Source: Halichondria panicea (Eukaryota > Porifera > Demospongiae > Suberitida > Halichondriidae). From it: a stretch of 64,000 nucleotides of DNA. The first letter of the stretch is position 1, and each line of letters begins with the position of its first letter. Shown here piece by piece: positions 12,001 to 29,331 of this stretch. The position numbers and the translations under genes were made by a program. The stretch spans positions 2,557,001 to 2,621,000 of the forward strand of contig NC_087392.1 in the NCBI RefSeq assembly GCF_963675165.1. Reading direction: 5' to 3'. Under the pieces are notes generated by a model. That model saw only the letters and a program-made list of their open reading frames with translations. It was not told the origin of the DNA and ran no database searches.

Positions 12001-13478
12001 CCCATTGAGAAAAGGGGTGGTGACGACAGGATACAGGTAAACACTCGCTTTATGAACATTTGTACTTTAGTTGGTTAGTTCTGTGATAATACGTTCAGTT
12101 TACTGATCCAGCTATTGGTATTGCCCTGCTTGTCCTAACGGACACTGAATCTTTTTACTTCTAAACTGATACAACTGTATAATTATATATTTCAGCTGCT
12201 CAGTTCAACTCAGTCTGTTAGCAGCTTACATGCATGTATGTATATAGACTGTAATAAATTATCTGGGTTTGGTCTTACTGCTTTGCCGTTGAGTATCTTT
12301 TGTATTGTATTGTAGGAGATCCTTGGCAGCTACAGAAACTTCCCTTCAAACTGGGAAGCCCAGCAACGATGTTTGGGTGTGGCTGATTCCAACCCCAGCA
12401 CACCACTCGCTCTTAGCAAACAATCCAATCCTTTCAACTCTATCAGTACTGCCTCCTCGTTAACCAGTTCAAGTACAGGGGCTGCCTCGTCAAGACACCA
12501 GGTGGCCGAGCCCCCTACTGGGCAGTCAGTACCCTCCCTGAAGCGAGAAAAAGGCAGCAGGGCAAGCTCCAAGCTTCCCAAACCTGATTCTAGGACTAGT
12601 ACGGGGAGCACTGGCAAAGGGAAGGTGGTCAAGACTGAGGACAAACCTATATTACAAACCAACACACTTCTCGTTAAGAAGCCCAATAAAGCTGCTATTA
12701 AGCCGCACAAAGCTTCTCAGAAGAAGACCTCCCCAAGCAAAACATCTATTCGCAGTAAACCCAAGGTCAAAAAGTCACATTCAAGCTCACAACTTCATAC
12801 TTCATCTGACCTTCCTACATCTGAGCTCCACACTTCGACAATCTCCTCCCACAAACCCAAAAAGCATCTCAATAACGTTCCATCGACTGTACTACAAATG
12901 TCCTCCAGCCCTCTGTCGACTTACAACACGGCGGCATCTTCCATTAAGAGAGTCTCCAGTGCTGGTCCACTGTCTAGTAGGACTGAGGTTAAAATCGAAC
13001 CGACTGACGTGGCTAGTAAGGCAGCAAAGAAGAAAAAGAAAAAGAAGGTGAAGAAGGAATCTTCAGTTGTGGCACCTGTGGTTGCTGAGTCACTTGATGG
13101 TCATGTGATTGCTGAGTCTGCTCCCACCACCTCACTGAGAGTCCAACTGCCAAAACAGAAGAGACCTCTTGAGCTTCAACTTGTGGCCGATACACCTGTC
13201 AGTGTCAGTGAGGTAAATTGCTATATGTACATGTTTGGCAACGAGACAGCTAGTCAGTTGTCTGTAATGCATGTGCTAGCATTGTACATTGTTTACTTGT
13301 TAGTCATAGGATGTGCACCTGTGCCTTCTATGCAGGATACAACAATGGATGCTGAGAGTGTATCCACCATGCTCAAGGTATGCTGAACCGAATAATATTG
13401 TGTTACATATGTATGACATGTACATGTATACCTCACACGCAAACACACACACGCACACACGCACTCACACATAGCACA

Positions 13479-13510
<32 letters not shown>

Positions 13511-16500
13511 CGTAGGAGCTGATGAATCCTCTCCCATCCACCTTGGTCACCCCACTCCCCACTCCAGTCAAAGCCCGCCCCTTCATATTCCCTCCTGCTG
13601 TCCCAAAGCTACCTACAGTTACTGAGATCAGACATTTTGTTGAAACCAAAAGGTGAACCAAATGTTGCAACGTACGCTATGACTCATGCTTTTGTTTGGA
13701 CTGGTCACTAGTTGTTTTCGGTGTTTGCTGTTGCATAACAATGACCTCACATTACCACAGCCGACCGTGCAGCTCTAGCAGCGAAGAGGGATTACAAGAC
13801 TCCAAAAGCAGGGTAAGTTACTCACGAAACTAGTGCATGTATACTCACAGGCTATACTGTTGTGTTAGTGTATGTAGTATGTGCGTGCATACGCCTGTTC
13901 ATGCAATGGGTTTGCATGCTAGTCTCTTTTCATTGCATGCCCATTTTATTGTCTTCGACAATTTGCACATTTTAGTGCACACAATACGTGTGCTAGTGGA
14001 CTAAACTGCAAGGGGAATCTAAGGGAATGTTGTACAACATAACACGACATTGATGTTGTATCACTGTAAACTCCCAGGAAGCTTTGGCGACAGCTATCTC
14101 CACACTAGAAAACAATATGGCAACAGAGACTGATCACACCCACTTACATATGGCCCCACCCCCCCATCAGCGGGTGAGGTCAAGTAGTAGTAGCAGCTCA
14201 AGTGATGATTCATCATCTGATTCTAGCAGTGACGGTGAAACCGAGGAAGATGATTTGGACCTTTTGGTGAGTGTTAGTTAGAATGTGAGATGTTTCTAAG
14301 ATGATCCCTTACCAAATTCAATAATTGCTCACTTTCCTGTAGGATTGTTAACCAATTATCAATCATAGCTCTGCTGTGGCTTGTATGAACTTTGCATTGC
14401 CCTGTTAGTAACACATGTGGTATCCCACAGCTCTCCAACCAGATGTCCGTACCTACTACCACTATCACGCCTATCAAGACGACCCCTCCTCGAAGGATAT
14501 CACAGCAGATCATATCACCGCTAGCACTTGATGAATCTGCTAACCTCTCTCCTGCCCAGAGCAAGACTTTTATGCACTTCCCTCAGACAAGCACAGGGTT
14601 TAACCCTCAAACTAGCACAGGATTTAACCCTCAGACGAGCATTGGATTTATCCCTCAGATGAGCACGGAATTAAACCCTCAGACGACCACTGGATTTAAC
14701 CTTCAGGGTAACGCTGGATTTAAACCTATAAATTCTGAACAATCTAGAGGTGGATTGGAGGCTACTGATGTTGCTATGGACTTTAATGTCAGTGATAGCG
14801 ATAGCAGTTCTGGTTCCAGTTCCGATTCAGGCTCTGAGTCCGATTCCGAGTCTAGTGATTCTGAAGAGGAGTCTGTTGTCCAACCGAACAAAGTTATAAC
14901 TCAATCTAACCATAGAACCAATCTAAACTTGTCTCGAGGCTGTGAGGATGGGTTGATGCCGTTCAACAGCTCCGGGGGATTTTTGGAAGGCACAGATTTC
15001 CTAACTGGATTAAGTAACATTGAAGCACCGTCAAACAGCACAGGTCAATCAATCACTTCACACACAAGCTACCAAGCAGTTGGCTCTGAATCTCTGCAAC
15101 CTTCCGCTGTCACTTCTATTCCCATCACAGTTGATATCACATCTACTGTAGTTAGTCCCACACCTGTACCGGCCCCTGGTATTGATATGCCGGCTGTCAC
15201 TACTCAACTTAAGAGAAAGAACTCGTCTTCCCAGAGAACAGCTAGGAAGGCCCCCAAATTGACAATCAAAGAGGCTGCTACGGCTTTCCAGACTCAAGAT
15301 ACCCGACCCTTGGCCAAGAGAACGATTAGCATCACAAGTTCAGAGTACCACTCGGAAGAGGGGGAAGTATCTTCTGAAACAGAGGATCAGTCCGTCTTTT
15401 CTATGCAATCAACGGTGTCCACTTCAACCAATCAGATCACTCGACCCGGACAAAGTTGCGTAGGGACACAAGGAGTGCCTTCATCTAACAAGGAGCACAC
15501 GGAGAGTTTTGTTGTCCGCTATGCCCTCGCTGAGCTCAAGAGAGTGCCTGATCAGCACAAGCCAAAGGCTAAGGTGGAGCCATTCAGACAGACCACGGAC
15601 AGTCGTACAAGGAGCAGACCCCCTGAATCAGAGCCGATGTCGTCAGATCGCCATGACGATCCCCGTGGCCTAGGACGGGAGAGAAGTGAGGGGCGGAGCA
15701 GAGATGGCTACACCAGTGTCAGTGGCAGCAGGCACAGAGACGAATACAGGTACTGTACATGTAATTATAGTGTGTGCTCTTCTAGACTATTACGTGTGTT
15801 TATATACGTATACATGACTATAATATTGTATGCATCTAAGTGACTGATAAAAGCGTTTAAAGTCCTTGACAACAATTCAATATTGTGTACATGTAAATTA
15901 CTTGCACTGTTATACACCTGCAAGAACACTGTTTGAATGTGGAAGTACATGTACAATAACATATGGTATTTTGTGCCCTCAGTCGCTCTTACCACCGTGA
16001 CCGTTCAAGTGATCGTCCACGCTCTCACCGTGGGGCTAGTCGTTGGGAGCGCGAGTCCTCTCGGGATAGACGCTACCCCCCGGATGATCGGCACCACTCA
16101 AGTGGACGTGGCTGGGACCGTGGCGAGTATGACTACTGGACAGACGATCATAGCGACTACGGAGGTGAAAGGTCACGAGGAAGGGGCGGGCGGTATGGCG
16201 TAGAGAGTCAGAACTACCCTGAGAAGTACATGTCAGAAGCTCGCAGGAAAAAGCACGAGGCTGACAAGATGGTGGGTACCTTTTGGGTGGCTATAATTAT
16301 TATAAGTATGTACTGTTACATGTGCTGCATGTGTGCTGCATGTAATTGGAGATTTCGCTGCTTATACTTCAACCACCCATTGTGATGGGCTAACTGAGCA
16401 TGACTATATTGTTCTGTACGTGATATTAATTATTTTGCATGCAGCCACACAGTGTGGAGAAGGCAAAAGCTTACATGGAGTCAGTGGTCCTGTTTATGAA

Positions 16501-19500
16501 GTATGGTGATGCCACAGAGGTGAGGACGGCTTGAAATACTGTTATCTCGATCTGTACATACTGTTTTATACATACTGGATCGACATGCTCATGCAGAGAA
16601 TTATACAAATTTCGTTCATTCTATAGCAACAAAGTGAGTCCTCAAACACGGGTGCTAAGAAGACTAGCGCCTTCAGAACTTACAGCGAGACTGTTGCAAT
16701 GATAAAGTGAGCTGCTCATGATTTTCTGGGTCTGTTAATTGTGTATGCATGGTGGTGGCAACCAAGTAGCTGAGCAGTTCAAAGAGAATAATTCCCCCAC
16801 TCATAGTGTGTGTGTGTGGTTAGTAGGAACAATAGCGATCATCGTGTTTAGGTCTACATGCCAGTGTACAATCTTTGTTCAGTTTGGCCACTTGCCAACT
16901 TCTACCTCCAAAGCTAACATTGTCCATTGTTTGATGCATATTGGCTGTACAATTTTCTGTATTGGCTTTTTGTATGTACTAGGCTGCCAAATATATTTTA
17001 TCATTCCTTTGATAATTGCAGTTAGGTAAAATTAATATCTAAGACTCTACAATGTACAGTACAAATATATTAACCATTATATCATAATTACATGTATGAT
17101 TGATCTACATGTACTTTAGATCCCACTTGTGTGTGTTTAGCAGGGAATTATGAGCCATAATCTCATAGTTTCCCAGGGAATTATAAGCTTGAGGGCATAA
17201 AGTACAAGTATAATTTTTTTGAATGCACAGAAATGATAATAAAGCTGTAGCTAGCTGCATGATAATTAGCTATGGCTGTTCAGTTTTTTCACTACCAGTT
17301 TCTATAGCGTTTGCTGGGTTGATGGTAGGGTTCACCAGTATCTTTTCTTGTCTCTACGAGGAACACTAAGAGCCAATGATTATAACAGTTCTGGGTCCAT
17401 TGTCACAAGCATGAAAGCATGTCTTCAACTTGTAGTATTTGTCAACTTTGTCCTCCTGACTTCTGTTTCTATCCTGCAGTCATGTTTCAAACAGTAGACT
17501 CCCTGTGTCTTTTTGGGAGGGAACGATAGTGCACTGTAGCATTGCTGCAAGCTGTTCCTTGCTAGCTAGCCGTACATATAAGAACAGTTTACTGAGAAGC
17601 TTGAGCTGGGGGTGGGGCTTGAGTGCAGAGAAAAGAGGAGGCTGGGCTCATTTGTTGCAGAGTGCTTCCTGCACAAGGTGGAGTCACTAGTTGTCCATTC
17701 TAATGTTGAAGCAAGGCCAATGCAAAGGTTTTTTTAGCAGAGAAGCAGAAATCATCTAGCTTGTCAAAACGAGACATTTTCAAAAATAAAGCTGTTGCTA
17801 AGGCTTGCTGCTTTTATAGATACACTTCTTGCCTGAGGCAGCCAATGAAAAGTGGGATCTAAATCAGTTAGCACATGTGCATTCGGTATCTATGGTTATA
17901 GTGTCCCTTATCCCTCGGGCAAAGCCCTCGTGATTGGGACACTATAACACATAGATACCTCATGCCCATGTACATCTATAACATAGTACAACACTCTATA
18001 ATAATTATGTGGCATTAGGTAACTTAGTATCAATCTACCATAATACTATGTTGCCAGGTAATTACCAAGCCTCTAAGTGCCCTGGGAATGAAGTGGTCAC
18101 CCATACACTTGCAAAAGCCATAGGAGCTAATTAACAGTCTCCTCCACATTTTCTGAAGTAATATGCGTGTCTATAATAATTTTCTTAAAATTGATGGTGA
18201 TCGAGAATACGGTACCAGTCTTACAGCCACCCACTTTTGGTCACTGTAGTTCTCTCTAGTTATACACATAATTATTTGTTTTTGGCCGCAGGTACTGTCA
18301 AAACATGGCTAATGACTGCAAGCCTCTAGTTGTTTTGTGGTGAGTTATCTGCAATAATTTTTTTATGTATCGACATCATTATCGATCACTGTGCATTTAC
18401 ATGTGTGGGAGCACACACAGAGACATGCACCTCTTCAACCCTATACATGCGCACACAGAGACATGCACACACAGAGACATGCACCTCTTCAACCCTATAT
18501 ATGTACCATGCACACAATAAATTGCAGTATGAGGTGTCAAAGTGTTCTACTCTGGAGAATGTATCTGATAAAATTGCCTGCAGCTTCAACTATACAACAG
18601 GTACTCACATATGTTATGGTTAGCGCATTAGCACTTCAGGTTATAGTCTTCCTTAAAATTCTTCTTGTTTTCATTCGAAGCTGATTATTCAATGTGTATA
18701 ATAAGTTGTTTCCTAGGCTACAGCTTAGTGCTTGAAATAATGCAATACCTATCCATTACATTTGTAGTTGTGTTGTTTATTATTGGCATATTATACATTA
18801 AGTTATGCTGATTAAGTTGTTTCCCAAGCTCCAGCTCGGTGCTTAAAATATTATAATCACTATCCATTAGTTATGTTGCCATACTCCATTAGCCATACGG
18901 GTGCATATAATAGTATAGTCAGTTGTTTCCCAGGCTACATGTCTAGTGCTGGAAATATTGCAATTATACTATCCATTATGCACTACACATGCAGGAGCTT
19001 CAAGAATACTTTATTCCACCTAAGGTATGTACTGTGTAAACACTTAACAGGGCTTTCAAATCCACCATGTTAGCTAGTTCTAGCTAACATATAATTATTA
19101 TAATATTCTAATAATTAATAATATTCTAGTAAATATAATTATGATGTAGCCATATCTACATGTACGCAGTACGTTCCTGACACTGAAAGTTGTAATTGTT
19201 TTCAGGGCACACAAGGGAAGTCCCCGTATCCAAACAGCTCCTCCCCCCTCCCGTCCCCAGCCAGTGTGGGCAGCACCACCAGCACCGGTAGTGGGGGGTG
19301 GACGGCCACTCAAGACCCCTCCCCTTCCGGCTCAGCCACCGTACCCAAACACATTGTGAACAAGGCCACTGAGCACCTCACTATATCTGGCTATGTCAGT
19401 AACAGCGTGGAGTTGTGGAAGACCAGCGAATCGCTCATGAGCCAGTACAGAGGTGTGTGTTCATTGCCTACATATGTACTGTAATAACTAACTATACATG

Positions 19501-20604
19501 TGCCTTTTGTGAATGTGGCCATGCATACATTCAAAAACATGATCAGTGAGTTTACTGAGATAATTAATAGTTGCTCAATGATCGATCGAGTGGCCAGTTT
19601 TTAGCACAACTGGAGAATGACCACCAGCTTCTTAAATAATGTATGTAATCAGAGTGTGTTATTTAGAAACACAACAAATTTACAGACCCTATTTCCTAAC
19701 ACATGTAATAGTATAGTTTTGACTTCTGTAACTGGAAGTATATAGTCCAATTACCCCCCTCCCACTCTTTGTAGGTCATGATTTCCTGCTACAATAACAT
19801 GATTTAAGCTGTATAATACACAAAGACTGATTGTGATGTATATCCGTTTCATGTGTATAGTCTCTGTGAGGCTGCACTGTTGGCAATACAAACACGATGT
19901 CTCATCACTGGCTTGTTACACGGCGCTCTTGTACAGTAGTAAACACCCACTCATACTTTGTGTATTCTGGGTGTGAGAGCACTAGTCTAGACAACTACGA
20001 GCCTTGAATATCCATATCGAGTAGTTTCATTATTCTTTGATTGGGCAGTATTTGGCTTACCTGATTTCAGTTGCTCCTATTTTGGCTACCCTAACTTTCC
20101 CTTTTTAAGATCGTGTTGCTACAATAGCTGATCACGAGAAACTAAATAGCTGTCATTCAATGAGGTATTATAATTATTCTATGCCTGATCGTCTTTTATT
20201 GTTGCTGCCATTGTTACAGAACTTTGAAGTGTTTATTCTCTTTCTTTGATTTCAGATTACTTCTCGAAGCATGACCACACAGCTAGTCAGAGAATGAGCC
20301 ACCACAGGTACGTGCGTGGCCACATGACTATGCCTCAGGGCATTACGTATGTGCATGCATGATCGAGTGTCGTTTTAATTTACAAGACCTGTTATCAACA
20401 ACTTAATTGCTCTGGCACGTAGATCACAGAAAATCATTTAAACTTGTTTGACATCAAAATAATTTGCAACACCCCAGCAGTTGTTTAGTTTGTGGTATGC
20501 ATATCGTGTGATAATTGCATTCTCTTTTTTCCTGCAGCCCTGTGAGCCATGTTGCTACCTGGAGTGAGAAAGTCTTACGGAATATCAGATATAATAGTTA
20601 CTAG
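9077..20604 (+). CDS. AFF4: AF4/FMR2 (AFF) family scaffold of the super elongation complex
   Basis: About 18 exons, roughly 1,250 residues. Exon 1 (9077-9101) encodes MESDHRKR. After a 2.5 kb intron come short exons encoding an RSKELEQQKRRN block and REPLFGKPIEK...DDRIQEILGSYRNF, equivalent to the N-terminal LFGEPYK/RIQ...LGNY segment by which AFF proteins bind P-TEFb. The middle is disordered: Lys-rich (13018-13060), two Ser/Asp-rich pSer tracts (14180-14265 and 14790-14875), an 8-residue tandem repeat, then an Arg/Asp/Tyr-rich exon (15983-16270). The C-terminal homology domain is spread over small exons: YMSEARRKKHEADKM, VEKAKAYMESVVLFMKYGDA, TSAFRTYSETVAMIK, YCQNMANDC, CMRCQSVLLWRMYLIKL (18527-18600), ELQEYF, then a helix-rich end VNKATEHLTISGYVSNSVELW. 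The family scaffolds P-TEFb, ELL and ENL/AF9. AFF1-4 cannot be separated; the symbol marks the family. Some small-exon joins are inferred. Confidence 0.85.
9102..11636 (+). other. Large first intron of the AFF gene
   Basis: About 2.5 kb, very long for this window. No conserved coding block, structured repeat or second gene was recognised. It could hide an alternative first exon or enhancer, but nothing specific supports this. Confidence 0.5.
13437..13509 (+). repeat. CA-rich microsatellite in an AFF intron
   Basis: An interrupted (CA)n tract ending in a long pure run just before the acceptor CGTAG of the next exon (about 13516). It lies where the polypyrimidine tract should be, so repeat length may affect acceptor strength. 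Its antisense reading gives a spurious CVCVC protein. Confidence 0.9.
14581..14724 (+). repeat. Six-copy 24-bp coding tandem repeat in AFF
   Basis: Six in-frame copies of a 24-base unit encode PQTSTGFN-type octapeptides (PQTSTGFN, PQTSTGFN, PQTSIGFI, PQMSTELN, PQTTTGFN, LQGNAGFK). The first two are the most alike and the last the most diverged. The whole repeat keeps frame inside the disordered centre of the AFF protein. Confidence 0.9.
16709..18291 (+). other. AFF intron between YSETVAMIK and the next C-terminal domain exon
   Basis: About 1.6 kb. It contains a short perfect-stem palindrome (listed separately) but no recognised exon or gene. Confidence 0.5.
17885..17959. mobile_element. 75-bp near-perfect palindrome, MITE-like
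   Basis: The left arm GGTATCTATGGTTATAGTGT and the right arm (17936-17959) are reverse complements except for one inserted base. The centre (CTCGGGC AAA GCCCTCG) is itself self-complementary, so the whole 75 bases can fold into one hairpin. Such short foldback units are typical of non-autonomous DNA transposons; an RNA hairpin within the intron is the alternative. Confidence 0.6.
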
Positions 20605-21058: not shown

Positions 21059-24000
21059 ATGCCAGTTATAGCAAAGACCGAGTACCTACTGAGCCCAGAA
21101 CATCTCCTATCTCGACATCAACATCATGTGTCAGGATTTCACCAGACACCCACACTGCCCCATTCAATCTTATTGAACGGCAATACACTGAATCGTTCTC
21201 TCTTCATCTTCCGTACTCACCACAGGGCCTGTGCAGAGAGGAGAAAAATTGGTCTTAGCTATGAGTTACAAGTGGAAGCTATCCGGACTGGCAAGTTTCT
21301 AGAGAAGATTGACTGCCCACCAACCACAACCAAACACACTCATTCCACTACCAAAGAACCAGAGAAACACTCACAAACTGACCAGGAGACCACTTGTGGG
21401 ACAAAACCTGAACCAATGGTGAGCTTCCCTTTTTCAACAATTTCAAATGATGTCATAGTATGATAAGTATCGTATAACAGTACATGTCAGTCAGGTTCTA
21501 TTTTAGTTAACAGCTATTGTCAAACTTGTAAGAGTGTCCTCTTAACTGTACCTGTGTTGGCGTAGTTTCCCTGGATAAGAGTGCGATATCTAGTACTGGT
21601 AAGCTGCTGCGTGTAATTACCACATCAGTTATTGTTGATTGTATAGCTCTTTGCTGCACGAACCTTTGATCTGACCTTACCTGCTAGTCTCTATAGAAAC
21701 AGACCTCCAATTGTTTTAGGTAGGCGGATTTCTTGGAAATAGCCTACCTAAAATTCTGGGAAATGGCCATAGCCGTAGTGAGGTCATAATTTTGTCTAGT
21801 ACTACATTGTAGTCCGCTGCAATCTTGTCATCTCTGATTTAGCCCATCTCTGATTTAGCCCGAATACTGTGTATGACCCTCTCCCTCTATTACCTTCTTA
21901 CATGAGTTGGGGATCTGACTTAGGGATGCAGTATCTTTTGTTGTTTGAATGTGGATTGTGTGCTTGCATGTTTATTTGCTTGGGCTACCCTGGTAGAGTA
22001 ATTGGCAACCCAACTGTTACTGATGTTTGGTCTGGATTACGGATATTTAACTAATAGGGTGGGCACTACAGCCTCTTGAGAAATTGTATGCAACTGTACA
22101 ATGTAGCGTAATAAAAGTTTCTGTTTCCATGTATGACGGTTTGCACTTAAGTGCTTTTAGTAGATTGCATGTGTTCTCACTTTCGTGAGATTTTTCACTA
22201 CACCTACACAGCATTTTAAACCCAGATTGCTCATTGTATGCAATGTAAGTGCTAATAACATAACTACCATGACTGCGTGCACATTTACGCACATTTTACA
22301 CCGACTAGTTTGTGTAGGCAGGTGGGGTGTTATTGATTTTCCTCCTTATAATTATGACAACCTCTCATTTATTTAGCCTATACTATTGTAAATCTGTTTT
22401 ACAATAGTATAACATTTTCTTCCCGTTATGTGACGGAGTTGATTACATAACCCAAACTTACTTTTACGGCTTTTTGGTTTTCTGCTTCATGGGCCTCTTG
22501 TTGTTACGTACTATGTATGGGTGCCCCTGCACCACTGCCTCATCATCTAGTGAGGTGAGCTGCTTTACCCTAGTGGGATGATCTCATTCTAGCGTGTTGG
22601 GATAGTTCAAGGGCATATTTTAATCCTACATTAGTTGTGGTGATTGAATGTGAGGTCAGAACTTGCTACCATGGACATCATAGGTACAATACATCATAGG
22701 TTCTGTGAGAAAATTGTCAGAGTCTTTGATGTGGCTTTGCCCTTCTGCATCCTTTACTTGCGCATGTGTTTATCACTTTGGCAGCTGCCTCCATAATATC
22801 ATATTTCCTTTTGTACATGCCACAGGTATCATTGTAAAAAATTAGTGGCCCATGCAAGCGTATGTTACTTGTAGTATAAATTGCTGTGCTACAAGTATGT
22901 TGTAATAGCTAAACACAAAATAATCATGCTGTCTCTTTCTTTGCAGGATACTCATCCCTTCAAACATTCTCCTCTGAGTCCACTGACCAATCCAATCTGT
23001 CCACATAAACCACATGATTGCTCCACTGACACCAAGCCGAACTTAAACTGTTCCACTGACTACAACACTGCAATGTTATACAATATGAACGGTGAACGAC
23101 TAACTGGAAAAACTTATAATCACAGCGGCCTTGAAAATAGAGTATTAGTAAAAACTGAACCTGGCACTGAAGAAGCCACACCACATCATTGTGCATCACC
23201 AATAGAAAATCGACCAACAAAACCGACTACTCTGATTCCAAGAGGAAAGAACAACACTGGTCCCCCCAGAACAAAACGGAGAAGATACTCCATCTCAACA
23301 TCTGTCACTCCTCTATCCTCAAGCTACTCTGACGATGCTGGGGATGATCTGAGCCTGTCTGCTGAGGACTGTATATCTGGAGTAATCAGTACACCCCATA
23401 TCAAGCCACTAGAGGAAGGAGATGACATACTAACAACACCATCACCAGCCACAACACCAACACTCAGTAGAAACAAGACGAATGCGCACAGAACTAAAAG
23501 TACTAGTGCAAGAGCTACTCCCTCACCTCCCAATCCCAATGCACTTTCACGCTCGGGGGCAGAGAGTAACAGCAAATTAACTGTGAAAGGAGATTTGGTA
23601 CAAGACTTAGATGAATTCACAAAAATTATGGAGATGGTCACAAAAGAACAGCTAGCCAAAGAAAGACAAGCCACAATCTCAACAACTCAGCAACAAATGA
23701 ACATAACTTCTCAAAGAGCTCGACGAATGACGTCACCTCCCCCCTACTACCCTCCTGGAGCCCAGCCCATCAATGGAGGACCACCCGTATCGCAAACAAA
23801 CTATTTAATGCAGCCACAATTCAAGTATCCAGTGACACCAGTTCCAAGAAGGGTATCGCTACCTGATGGAACTCTAGAGAACAGGCCACTTGCTCGACCT
23901 CACTCTCTAGAAATGCATAAGAATCCACGACCTGTGGCTTTGTCTGGAATTTCTCCCCATTTGGATAGCTCAGAATTGATGAGTCCCGCGCTTTTGTCGA

Positions 24001-24542
24001 CACCTCGTACTTCTACTCCTGGCTACCCTGACCATCCAGGACACTACTCTGTGACTGCACCTGAACACACAACAATGATCACACAGCCTCCGTGCACACC
24101 AACCACCCCTCGTGGCAACTTTTCTGCTTTTTCAAATCAACAACTATTAAAATCCCCTACTCAAGCTCGCCCGTTTTTCCCACAAAATGGAACCTCTTAC
24201 CAATATCAACGAAAACACTCTTTGCCGGCTGGTTTACCTAACTCGACACCGTGGTCTCAAGCACAGCAAACTCACAACTCCCCACAACAAAATGAAGCCT
24301 GCCTACCCAGAGTCCATCCTGGCCTGGAGACGATCACTTCCCACAAGCGACCCCCAACACAAGGCCAGGCCTGGGTCACTGGAGGACAAATGCGAGAAAT
24401 GTCTCTGACATTGCCGCAGTTCTCAAACCACTATTCTGTAGTTGATACTACTCCTGTCCCTAATACAGGTCTTCCTCCAACCCCTATGTTGAACTATCAC
24501 AATCACTCAACTCTCTCTTACAGTCGCCATCACCCACTTTGA
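21059..24542 (+). CDS. Low-complexity nuclear-type protein, candidate Mastermind-like
   Basis: Two exons: 21059-21420 (start MPVIAKTEYLL) and 22948-24542, joined in frame at EPM|DTHPF, about 650 residues. I do not recognise it with confidence. It is rich in Ser, Thr, Pro, Gln and Asn, lacks a globular domain, has basic clusters (TKRRRYS, SQRARRMTS), a probable SUMO site (VKTEP, about 23148) and one predicted helix (QDLDEFTKIMEMVTKEQLAK). Near residue 50 the segment LNRSLFIFRTHHRACAER aligns without gaps to the LxR...RxHHxxCxxR core of the Notch/CSL-binding helix of Mastermind proteins. A short N-terminal exon followed by one huge low-complexity exon is also how vertebrate MAML genes are built. 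This is suggestive, not proof. The true N-terminus may lie in an upstream exon; the open frame extends upstream to 20882. Confidence 0.6.
21714..21753. repeat. Perfect 12-bp-arm inverted repeat
   Basis: TTTTAGGTAGGC (21714-21725) and GCCTACCTAAAA (21742-21753) are perfect reverse complements around a 16-base loop, inside the intron of the Mastermind-like candidate. Confidence 0.8.
22379..22411. repeat. Perfect 14-bp-arm hairpin with 4-5 base loop
   Basis: TATACTATTGTAAA and TTTACAATAGTATA flank a tiny TCTGT loop in the same intron, giving a tight stable hairpin. Confidence 0.8.
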
Positions 24543-26519: not shown

Positions 26520-26582
26520 ACAGACACACAAACCAAACAGGAAATACCTTCCCAATGGTATAATGTACATTACATGACTCAC

Positions 26583-29299
26583 CCATGGCCCCACAGGTAC
26601 CTGGCTTCACCATTCATCACAAGCAAGCTTCTGGGTGGGAGAAGCAGGGGAACCTTCTTACCATCAGTAGGGTGTTTGAATTCCATCACAACCTGCTCAA
26701 CGACGTTACATGTAAACGCAGTGAAGATGCAGTCATGAATCTGAATGCGTGCAGCAATCAATGCCTGTCTCATACACTAATTTACACAACCCAGTGTTTT
26801 TAAATTAATGCTAGTTTCTGCGTGTGTCTAAATTAACTGGTTTGTACGTGGAGAGACATGTAATGATTGGTACAGACTTTGTGGTATAATGATCGATAGT
26901 TATTGGTGTTTGAGGGGAACAGAATGGCATAGTGTAAAGGTCGGAATACTGAATGGAATGGATCCAGTATGGAAAGGAATATGGAATGAGAGAGCATGCA
27001 TTAACTCTCTTTTTTGGTGGACACAATACATATTGCCATTGTAAGTTTAATAGTTGACTGTGTATATAACCAAGCCTTTGCCATAGAATTCCACACACAT
27101 TGGGTTGCGTAGTCAGCAAAATTCCACATTTATAGTTATACAATAAACTGTTTCTTATTACCACTGTGCAACAGTGTGGCAAGCTGTTGACCCTCTTTCC
27201 TACAGGGTGTCATGTGATGATTACAGCCAGCTACATGCTATCTTGCTTGAGTTTTCGGATTGAGCATGTTATGATATTCAAGTCAATATTTCATGCGAAG
27301 TATCTAGTTTAATCGAATAGCAGAGTTTAAGCTTCAAAATGACCAAGATGGCCTAGTTTGCGCTTTCCTAGCTTGAGTGAATGGTTGAGAATTATATTTC
27401 TAATCTCTTCAACAACACGTACATTTAATTACTATATAGCTACTGAGCAATTGTATAGTGGGTAACTTTTGTTGGGTCAAAATTCATTGAACTTGAACAG
27501 CGGTGATTTTCGTGAGTAAAAATTCCTTACGTGCACTGCATTGTACCAGAGGAGGTATGACAGGCGGGGTGCAGCTCAGGCAATTAGCCTTTGATTGAAC
27601 AATAATTATCCGCCCACTCCCCACCCACGTCGTATGTTTTTGCTGAGAGTAATCAGAGGCTAATTACTTGAGTTGCACCGCGCCTGTCGGACCTCCTCTG
27701 GCATTGTATGCGTTATGGTAAACCACGCCTATGTTTTCGTGGGTAAAATTTGAGGTCAGTTTACCCACGAAAATAACGGTTTTTTTACCCCACAAAAATG
27801 ACCAGCTGTACGGTAGTCCACTTTTTAACTATGTGTCTATAAAAGGCTCCTGTACCACTTTTACAAGTATTAGTCATACTACACCAGTAGTATACAGCTA
27901 CAGAGCACCATCAGCAGCTCTCTTTTTTAATACTATCTTTGTCATTCCATATATCGTTCCAATTCCAGCTTTTACACTATGCCGAACAGAATTGAGTAAT
28001 GCAACAAAAATTGTACATTGCTACCTGTGATCCAAGGCTAAGTGAAATTATTGGACCTTGAAAAACTGAGTGGGTGTCCACATGTGAGGGAATACCTTTA
28101 GGAGAAAGACAAGAGAGTAGATTTGATCATAGATAGAAGAAGCAGATTTTCCATTACTGCACGTAATATACAGTATAGCGGGTAATTTTCGGGGGGCAAA
28201 CTATTTGTGGTCGAGCAATATTTAGTCATTTCGTGGATAATATTTTCGTGGTTGCAGCTTGCTTGCACTGCAGGTAAAGGTAGGCAAGGTCGATTCATTC
28301 GTGGGTAAATATTCGTGGTCAGACCGTCAACCACAAAAACCACGCCTATTTTGCCCCACGAAAATTACCCGACGGTATATGTATACCTGCTCCAGGGTTG
28401 TATCTATTGACAGTGAGTTGGTCTGGGTGGTGTGTGATCAGTCCTTGCTCCATCATCCTGTCCAGTAGAGGGTGAGTGATGGCAGGTAGGCGCCCAGGGA
28501 GAGGGTTGTTGGGGTCAACCAGGTTACTTCCATACAGAAACTCGTAGCCAAAGTGCATAACTTGACGATGTTTCAGAGTTGCCTTTGGTGGAGAGCAGCC
28601 ACCCTCAGTACGTTTTACTACAATGGCTGTTTGTTGAGGTTCGTCATTAGCTGATACTATCCCATGAGTTGTTCTGTTTGGCTGTAATGTTTGCTTTGTC
28701 TCACTCTCAAACGAGAAAAATTTCAGCAACTGATCCTCTTCTTGAATTGACACAAAATCTTCCAGCAGTATAAGTCCTGGAGGGACCTGGCTGCATTCTG
28801 TTCGTTTAGGCACTCCACATCCTAAAATGCTTGATGGTATTTTATTGACATAGCTCATGTAGAGATGTACAGGGGGTCCATGCAACAGGGCAGGGGGGAG
28901 GGACTGAAGAAGGCTCTCGTTGCTCCTACACACTTCTACTATGCACACACCATTCAGTGACACTAGACACTGACTAGCAATTATCGTACTGGTAAATGTG
29001 ACAAATGCATAATCTTTTCCTGATGGAAGGTACAATTGTTTCAAATATCCTTCGGATTGTAATGGGTTTAGCATGTGTTCTAGTACCTCCCTGGGAACTC
29101 CATTCTTCAGACCCCCATTACCAATGAATAAGTGTACAGAGGGTTCTTCTTGAAATCCTATATCTGTCTTAGGCTCTTGCTTCAAGTACTGTGCCTGCTT
29201 TCTCTTCACCTTCCTGTGTACCTTGTCCTTGTCCAAATCCATATTTTGTGGGCGTGGCTGCCTGGGTGATTTTGTGCTGACATCAGCACTCTTGTGCAT
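26583..29299 (-). CDS. ALKBH8: ALKBH8, RRM plus AlkB dioxygenase part (3' end not found)
   Basis: Three exons are visible: 28387-29299, 28025-28095 and 26583-26692. The first has a Lys-rich N-terminus, the RRM ([21 protein letters not shown] ... [10 protein letters not shown]) and the start of the AlkB fold ([41 protein letters not shown]). The small second exon supplies [13 protein letters not shown], with the H-x-D iron ligands, and IISLSLGSQ. The third gives [37 protein letters not shown] in pieces. In animals ALKBH8 hydroxylates and, through a C-terminal methyltransferase, methylates tRNA wobble uridines. Here the distal iron His, the 2-oxoglutarate Arg residues and the whole methyltransferase could not be found before the next gene. 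The last visible exon ends in a normal donor, phase 2. The true start may be the second Met (29242), which better matches the family. Confidence 0.85.
27451..27815. mobile_element. Inverted-repeat element split by another element, ALKBH8 intron
   Basis: The left end GTATAGTGGGTAACTTTTGT and the right end (minus-strand reading TACCGTACAGCTGGTCATTT then TTGTGGGGTAA) are related inverted termini of the same TAYCGTATAGYGGGTAATTTT family seen at 28171 and 50803. It is interrupted by a 155-bp hAT-like insert. Internally GTGGGTAAA and TTTACCCAC also pair. Confidence 0.6.
27546..27701. mobile_element. hAT-like MITE with 45-bp terminal inverted repeats and 7-8-bp TSD
   Basis: CCAGAGGAGGTATGACAGGC at the left pairs over ~45 bases with the right end (...GCCTGTCGGACCTCCTCTGG), with few mismatches. 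GCATTGTA occurs on both sides (27538-27545 and 27701-27708), a target-site duplication of 7-8 bases. CAGAGG/CCTCTG ends and an 8-base duplication fit non-autonomous hAT elements. No transposase is encoded. Confidence 0.8.
28171..28380. mobile_element. MITE with TATAGCGGGTAATTTTCG termini beside an ALKBH8 splice donor
   Basis: Left TATAGCGGGTAATTTTCGGG and right (minus-strand reading TATACCGTCGGGTAATTTTC then GTGGGG) are matching inverted ends. Several internal TTCGTGG/CCACGAA pieces also pair. The right end lies only about six bases inside the intron from the donor of ALKBH8 exon 1 (28386/28387). Confidence 0.75.
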
Positions 29300-29331
29300 T
29301 TTAACAATTAGAGACTAGACATTGAGCTGAG
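29300..29331. promoter_or_regulatory. 32-bp gap between divergent ALKBH8 and DDIAS start codons
   Basis: The two ATGs face away from each other with 32 bases between them (89 if ALKBH8 starts at its second Met). The core promoters and 5' UTRs must overlap the partner's transcript, or one annotated start is too far upstream. Confidence 0.5.

Follow-up and report, generated by a model that had tools for sequence, protein, structure and literature searches.

Genes within the Analyzed Region

The analyzed window, a 64-kb stretch of DNA (C16:2,557,001-2,621,000) on a contig comprising 4.4% of the genome, contains a two-exon candidate gene flanked by an AF4/FMR2 (AFF) family gene and by ALKBH8 (Table 1). 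The AFF gene was recognized by the AFF4_CHD domain (1.6e-6 on one exon and 1.2e-17 on the joined exons), with the C-terminal homology domain extending from about position 16,220 onward, and it also bears a Ser/Asp/Glu stretch. The other recognizable genes of the window are RAB30, MLH1, a sarcoglycan gene, C2CD3 and HMBS, and three or more galactosyltransferase genes, in both orientations, adjoin one another at C16:2.632-2.652 Mb.

In the preliminary description, the DNA was attributed to a sponge-type genome, which agrees with the presence of a multi-exon silicatein gene whose product has Ser in place of the catalytic Cys (GDCGASYAFSA), and points to a siliceous demosponge. Several multi-exon silicatein-like genes were observed (C2:656-669 kb, C6:200-206 kb, and others; Ser for Cys was read in one of them), and uninterrupted cathepsin/silicatein-like copies occur alongside them in the genome.

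Table 1. Features of the candidate gene and of its nearest neighbours (positions within the window).
Feature	Position	Strand	Basis
AF4/FMR2 (AFF) family gene, immediate upstream neighbour, approximate limits	12316..20604	+	Pfam AFF4_CHD
Candidate gene, exon 1 (residues 1-120)	21059..21418	+	Open frame, ATG at 21059, donor ATG/GTGAGC (exon/intron)
Peptide LNRSLFIFRTHHRACAER (residues 44-61), in frame	21188..21241	+	As in the preliminary description; MamL profile match at background level
Candidate gene, intron, phase 0	21419..22946	+	GT...AG; splice signals GTGAGC and TTTCTTTGCAG (acceptor TTTGCAG)
Candidate gene, exon 2 (residues 121-651 and stop TGA)	22947..24542	+	555-aa open frame, composition, motifs
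ALKBH8, next gene downstream, approximate limits	26564..29314	-	phmmer to PDB 3thp (alkB homolog 8), 1.7e-27

Structure of the Candidate Gene and Features of Its Product

The model of the candidate gene, derived from open frames and splice signals, yields a protein of 651 aa encoded by two exons. It reproduces the short N-terminal exon and the giant second exon reported earlier, with splice signals that fit, and the peptide singled out in the preliminary description was found in frame on the plus strand. Codon usage favoured the proposed frame in either exon, although in this weak test the score of exon 1 fell inside the range of random ORFs. The gene is single-copy: a genome-wide protein search (131 Mb, 39 contigs) matched only its own locus, and no paralogues of the protein were found in the 131-Mb genome.

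Exon 2 encodes a tail with 13.4% P, 11.9% T, 10.4% S, 5.8% N and 5.1% Q, so the earlier characterization of this region as Ser/Pro/Gln/Asn-rich holds for Pro and Ser (together with Thr) and fails for Gln and Asn. Judging from this composition, the protein may be largely disordered, and a single-sequence AF2 prediction for exon 1 alone placed residues 41-62 and 68-77 in helices, though the mean pLDDT was as low as 50. No family was recognized in the protein by the Pfam search, the PDB sequence search returned noise only, and no relatives were found in the viral and prokaryote contig collections. Readings of the protein as a CRTC, HMG-box or AFF protein were dropped after inspection by eye, AFF being the separate gene upstream.

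Three kinds of short motifs were distinguished in the protein: VKTEP (residues 188-192, noted already in the preliminary description), a basic KRRR cluster (residues 230-233) and two RxxSLP motifs, RRVSLP and RKHSLP (residues 421-426 and 542-547, 121 apart). Two such RxxSLP motifs, against 0.03 expected, were reached by only 9 of 20,000 shuffles; this pair is the clearest non-random feature of the protein, and it resembles 14-3-3 sites. The KRRR cluster, being of nuclear-localization type, would take the protein into the nucleus, VKTEP is a putative SUMO-modified site, and the two RxxSLP sites, once phosphorylated, might be held by a 14-3-3 dimer, which would control where the protein sits.

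Comparison with the Mastermind Helix

The preliminary description proposed that LNRSLFIFRTHHRACAER aligns with the helix by which Mastermind, a coactivator of Notch, contacts its partners. Among the helix sequences used for comparison, those of human MAML1-3 and fly Mam, the human MAML1 query was verified against the PDB 2F8X chain, and the Pfam MamL-1 profile (PF09596, cut-off 25 bits) gives the four 69-99 bits. The MamL-1 search, which had been suggested as a check, returned nothing at E values up to 10 for either the candidate protein or its helix and zero matches in the six-frame translated genome, and tblastn of the genome with the human and fly MamL helices found none.

A custom HMM built from the four known helices and run unfiltered gave 3.5 bits for the candidate exon, a score equalled or exceeded by 338 of 20,000 shuffles (1.7%). 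The stop-to-stop ORF of the candidate scored 4.3 bits, ranking seventh among the 1596 ORFs of the window (six score higher) and fourteenth among 2790 ORFs in 234 kb; fly Mam, when left out of the profile, still scores 31 bits. In the ungapped comparison, the 18-mer was the top MamL match in the 64 kb with 15.4 bits, and the second place, in the same window, reached 14.6 bits. The score of the 18-mer was reached in 11 of 20,000 shuffles, and that of a 40-residue core in 15 of 3001, although about one match of the 18-mer's quality would be expected when 64 kb is scanned. The alignment was thus not confirmed to rise above chance.

At the residue level, ten positions are the same in all of human MAML1-3 and in fly Mam (R22, L23, R24, R26, R31, C37, R40, Y41, T56 and L59 in MAML1 numbering), and the candidate has, ungapped, T, L, N, S, R, C, R, R, T and F at these sites. 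Five are therefore kept (L23, R31, C37, R40 and T56); the T56 equivalent, located in register 16 residues past the end of the 18-mer, is counted in favour of Mastermind. The changes at I27 and at L59 (the latter one of the ten) are conservative, and the candidate carries T, N, S and R where MAML1 has R22, R24, R26 and Y41. Within 234 kb, a further 20 sites likewise keep five of the ten invariants, and background places reach five to six. MAML1 receives most of its hydrogen bonds from acidic residues of the Notch ankyrin repeats (PMC9118731), and since we infer R22, R24 and R26 to be the partners of such residues, their loss is probably costly. The HH pair, which the preliminary description placed in the core of the Mastermind helix, is not a Mastermind invariant (fly Mam has RQ in its place), and genome-wide the pattern R-x-HH-x2-C-x2-R was counted about 121 times, versus 105 for the reversed-pattern control.

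By these sequence comparisons, the likeness between the candidate and the Mastermind helix is indistinguishable from chance and carries little weight alone. As there is no Pfam MamL-1 match, the profile score is at background level and invariant residues are lost, the sequence argument offered for Mastermind does not hold. Such tests would probably also miss a Mastermind that had diverged as far as nematode SEL-8/LAG-3, so they lower the claim and do not refute it.

Chromosomal Context

In human, CANX presumably adjoins MAML1, TMEM185A is taken to lie between AFF2 and MAMLD1, and AFF4 and AFF1 are assumed to be on the chromosomes of MAML1 and MAML3, respectively. RAB30, C2CD3, ALKBH8 and HMBS, all found in the window, are likewise presumed to be human 11q genes, which would place them with MAML2. 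The published locations of human MAML1, MAML2 and MAML3 are 5q35.3, 11q and 4q (PMC7787167), and Xq27.3-q28 groups AFF2, IDS, MAMLD1 and MTM1 (PMC3643848).

Four families (TMEM185, calnexin, MTM and TBC1D9) were chosen before the search as expected on C16 if this contig is the Mastermind chromosome. The sole genome match of TMEM185 is located on C16, as is calnexin (with calreticulin on C4), whereas the MTM genes lie on other contigs and the best TBC1D9 match on C3. Since C16 represents only 4.4% of the genome, finding two of four families there is about a 1% event in a simple binomial calculation. C16 is thus plausibly the contig on which Mastermind would be expected, without an indication of which of its genes this is; a better MamL match was sought near calnexin (about 45 kb) and TMEM185 (47 kb), and noise only was found. 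The TMEM185 gene region (C16:2.137 Mb) includes a (TG)n repeat some 400 bases long. The adjacency of AFF to the candidate was noticed after the fact and was therefore given only few-fold weight. Taken together, this adjacency, the presence of TMEM185 and calnexin on the contig, and the 11q-type neighbours give weak-to-moderate support for Mastermind that is independent of the alignment, and the position near Mastermind-linked genes is the only thing that keeps this idea alive for the candidate.

Assignment of the Candidate Gene

The candidate is a real gene, present once in this demosponge genome, and we consider it reasonably probable that its Pro/Thr/Ser-rich product is a largely disordered protein with a short helix near the N terminus, most likely a nuclear co-regulator or scaffold; its nuclear location, its control by SUMO and 14-3-3, and any role in transcription are putative. 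Counted against this reading are the rarity of the 18-mer and 40-residue core scores in shuffles and the Mastermind-like chromosomal context.

A very divergent true Mastermind orthologue seems to us unlikely, though less so than the other alternative considered below. Its helix (residues 41-85) is proposed to lie in the groove between the Notch ankyrin repeats and CSL, and its disordered tail would recruit a CBP/p300-type acetyltransferase and so turn Notch targets on. The five invariants kept ungapped, the two conservative changes, the division into a helix in the first exon and a tail in the giant second exon, and the linkage to AFF, TMEM185, calnexin and 11q-type genes all speak for it, as does the presence of CSL in the genome (BTD at C3:4.108 Mb); a search of the genome for the Notch NOD domain, run without a positive control, was empty. 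The background-level profile score, the genome-wide lack of MamL-1 matches, the replaced basic and Tyr residues, and the placement of MTM and TBC1D9 (human MAML-linked families) outside C16 speak against it. So do published surveys, in which sponges have Notch, Delta and CSL but not Mastermind, argued to be dispensable or a eumetazoan addition (PMC2770060, PMC5684314, PMC4335385); its absence was reported for Amphimedon, Homoscleromorpha and glass sponges, with the reservation that divergence may hide it (PMC2770060, PMC5684314; summarized in PMC10970066).

Compared with human MAML1-3 and fly Mam, the candidate shares a short N-terminal helix, here predicted at low confidence and in Mastermind about 45-55 residues long, ahead of a long low-complexity tail, as well as half of the invariant helix residues in an ungapped register and linkage to AFF, TMEM185 and calnexin, and its VKTE site is comparable in kind to the two SUMO sites of MAML1 (PMC7787167). 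It differs in lacking a significant profile match and four of the invariant residues, and in having a tail that is Pro/Thr/Ser-rich, not Gln-rich, and carries two RxxSLP motifs. A precedent is provided by nematode SEL-8/LAG-3, a Mastermind equivalent structurally distinct from the fly protein and functionally similar to it (PMC7787167); SEL-8 was identified by function, whereas the candidate is known here from sequence.

Another animal co-regulator family, unrelated to Mastermind and Notch, whose defining segment has diverged past Pfam recognition, would account for the empty Pfam, PDB and viral/prokaryote searches, this genome being the one animal sequence collection covered. Paired RxxSLP sites are also not known as a feature of Mastermind. 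No specific family can be named, however, and those considered, CRTC and AFF, do not fit, so we regard this explanation as improbable. The candidate is best filed as an uncharacterized, disordered nuclear protein that is probably phospho-regulated, and not as Mastermind.

Possible Significance for the Evolution of Notch Signaling

It is doubtful, in our view, that the candidate represents the Mastermind so far missing from sponges, too diverged for profiles to recognize but still at its ancestral position next to AFF, with the full CSL-Notch-Mastermind switch being older than the split between sponges and eumetazoans. If a sponge Mastermind were true, the origin of the complete canonical switch would be moved back to the earliest animals. 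Without such proof, the gene in the AFF-ALKBH8 interval is still a concrete target that can be sought and tested across sponge genomes.
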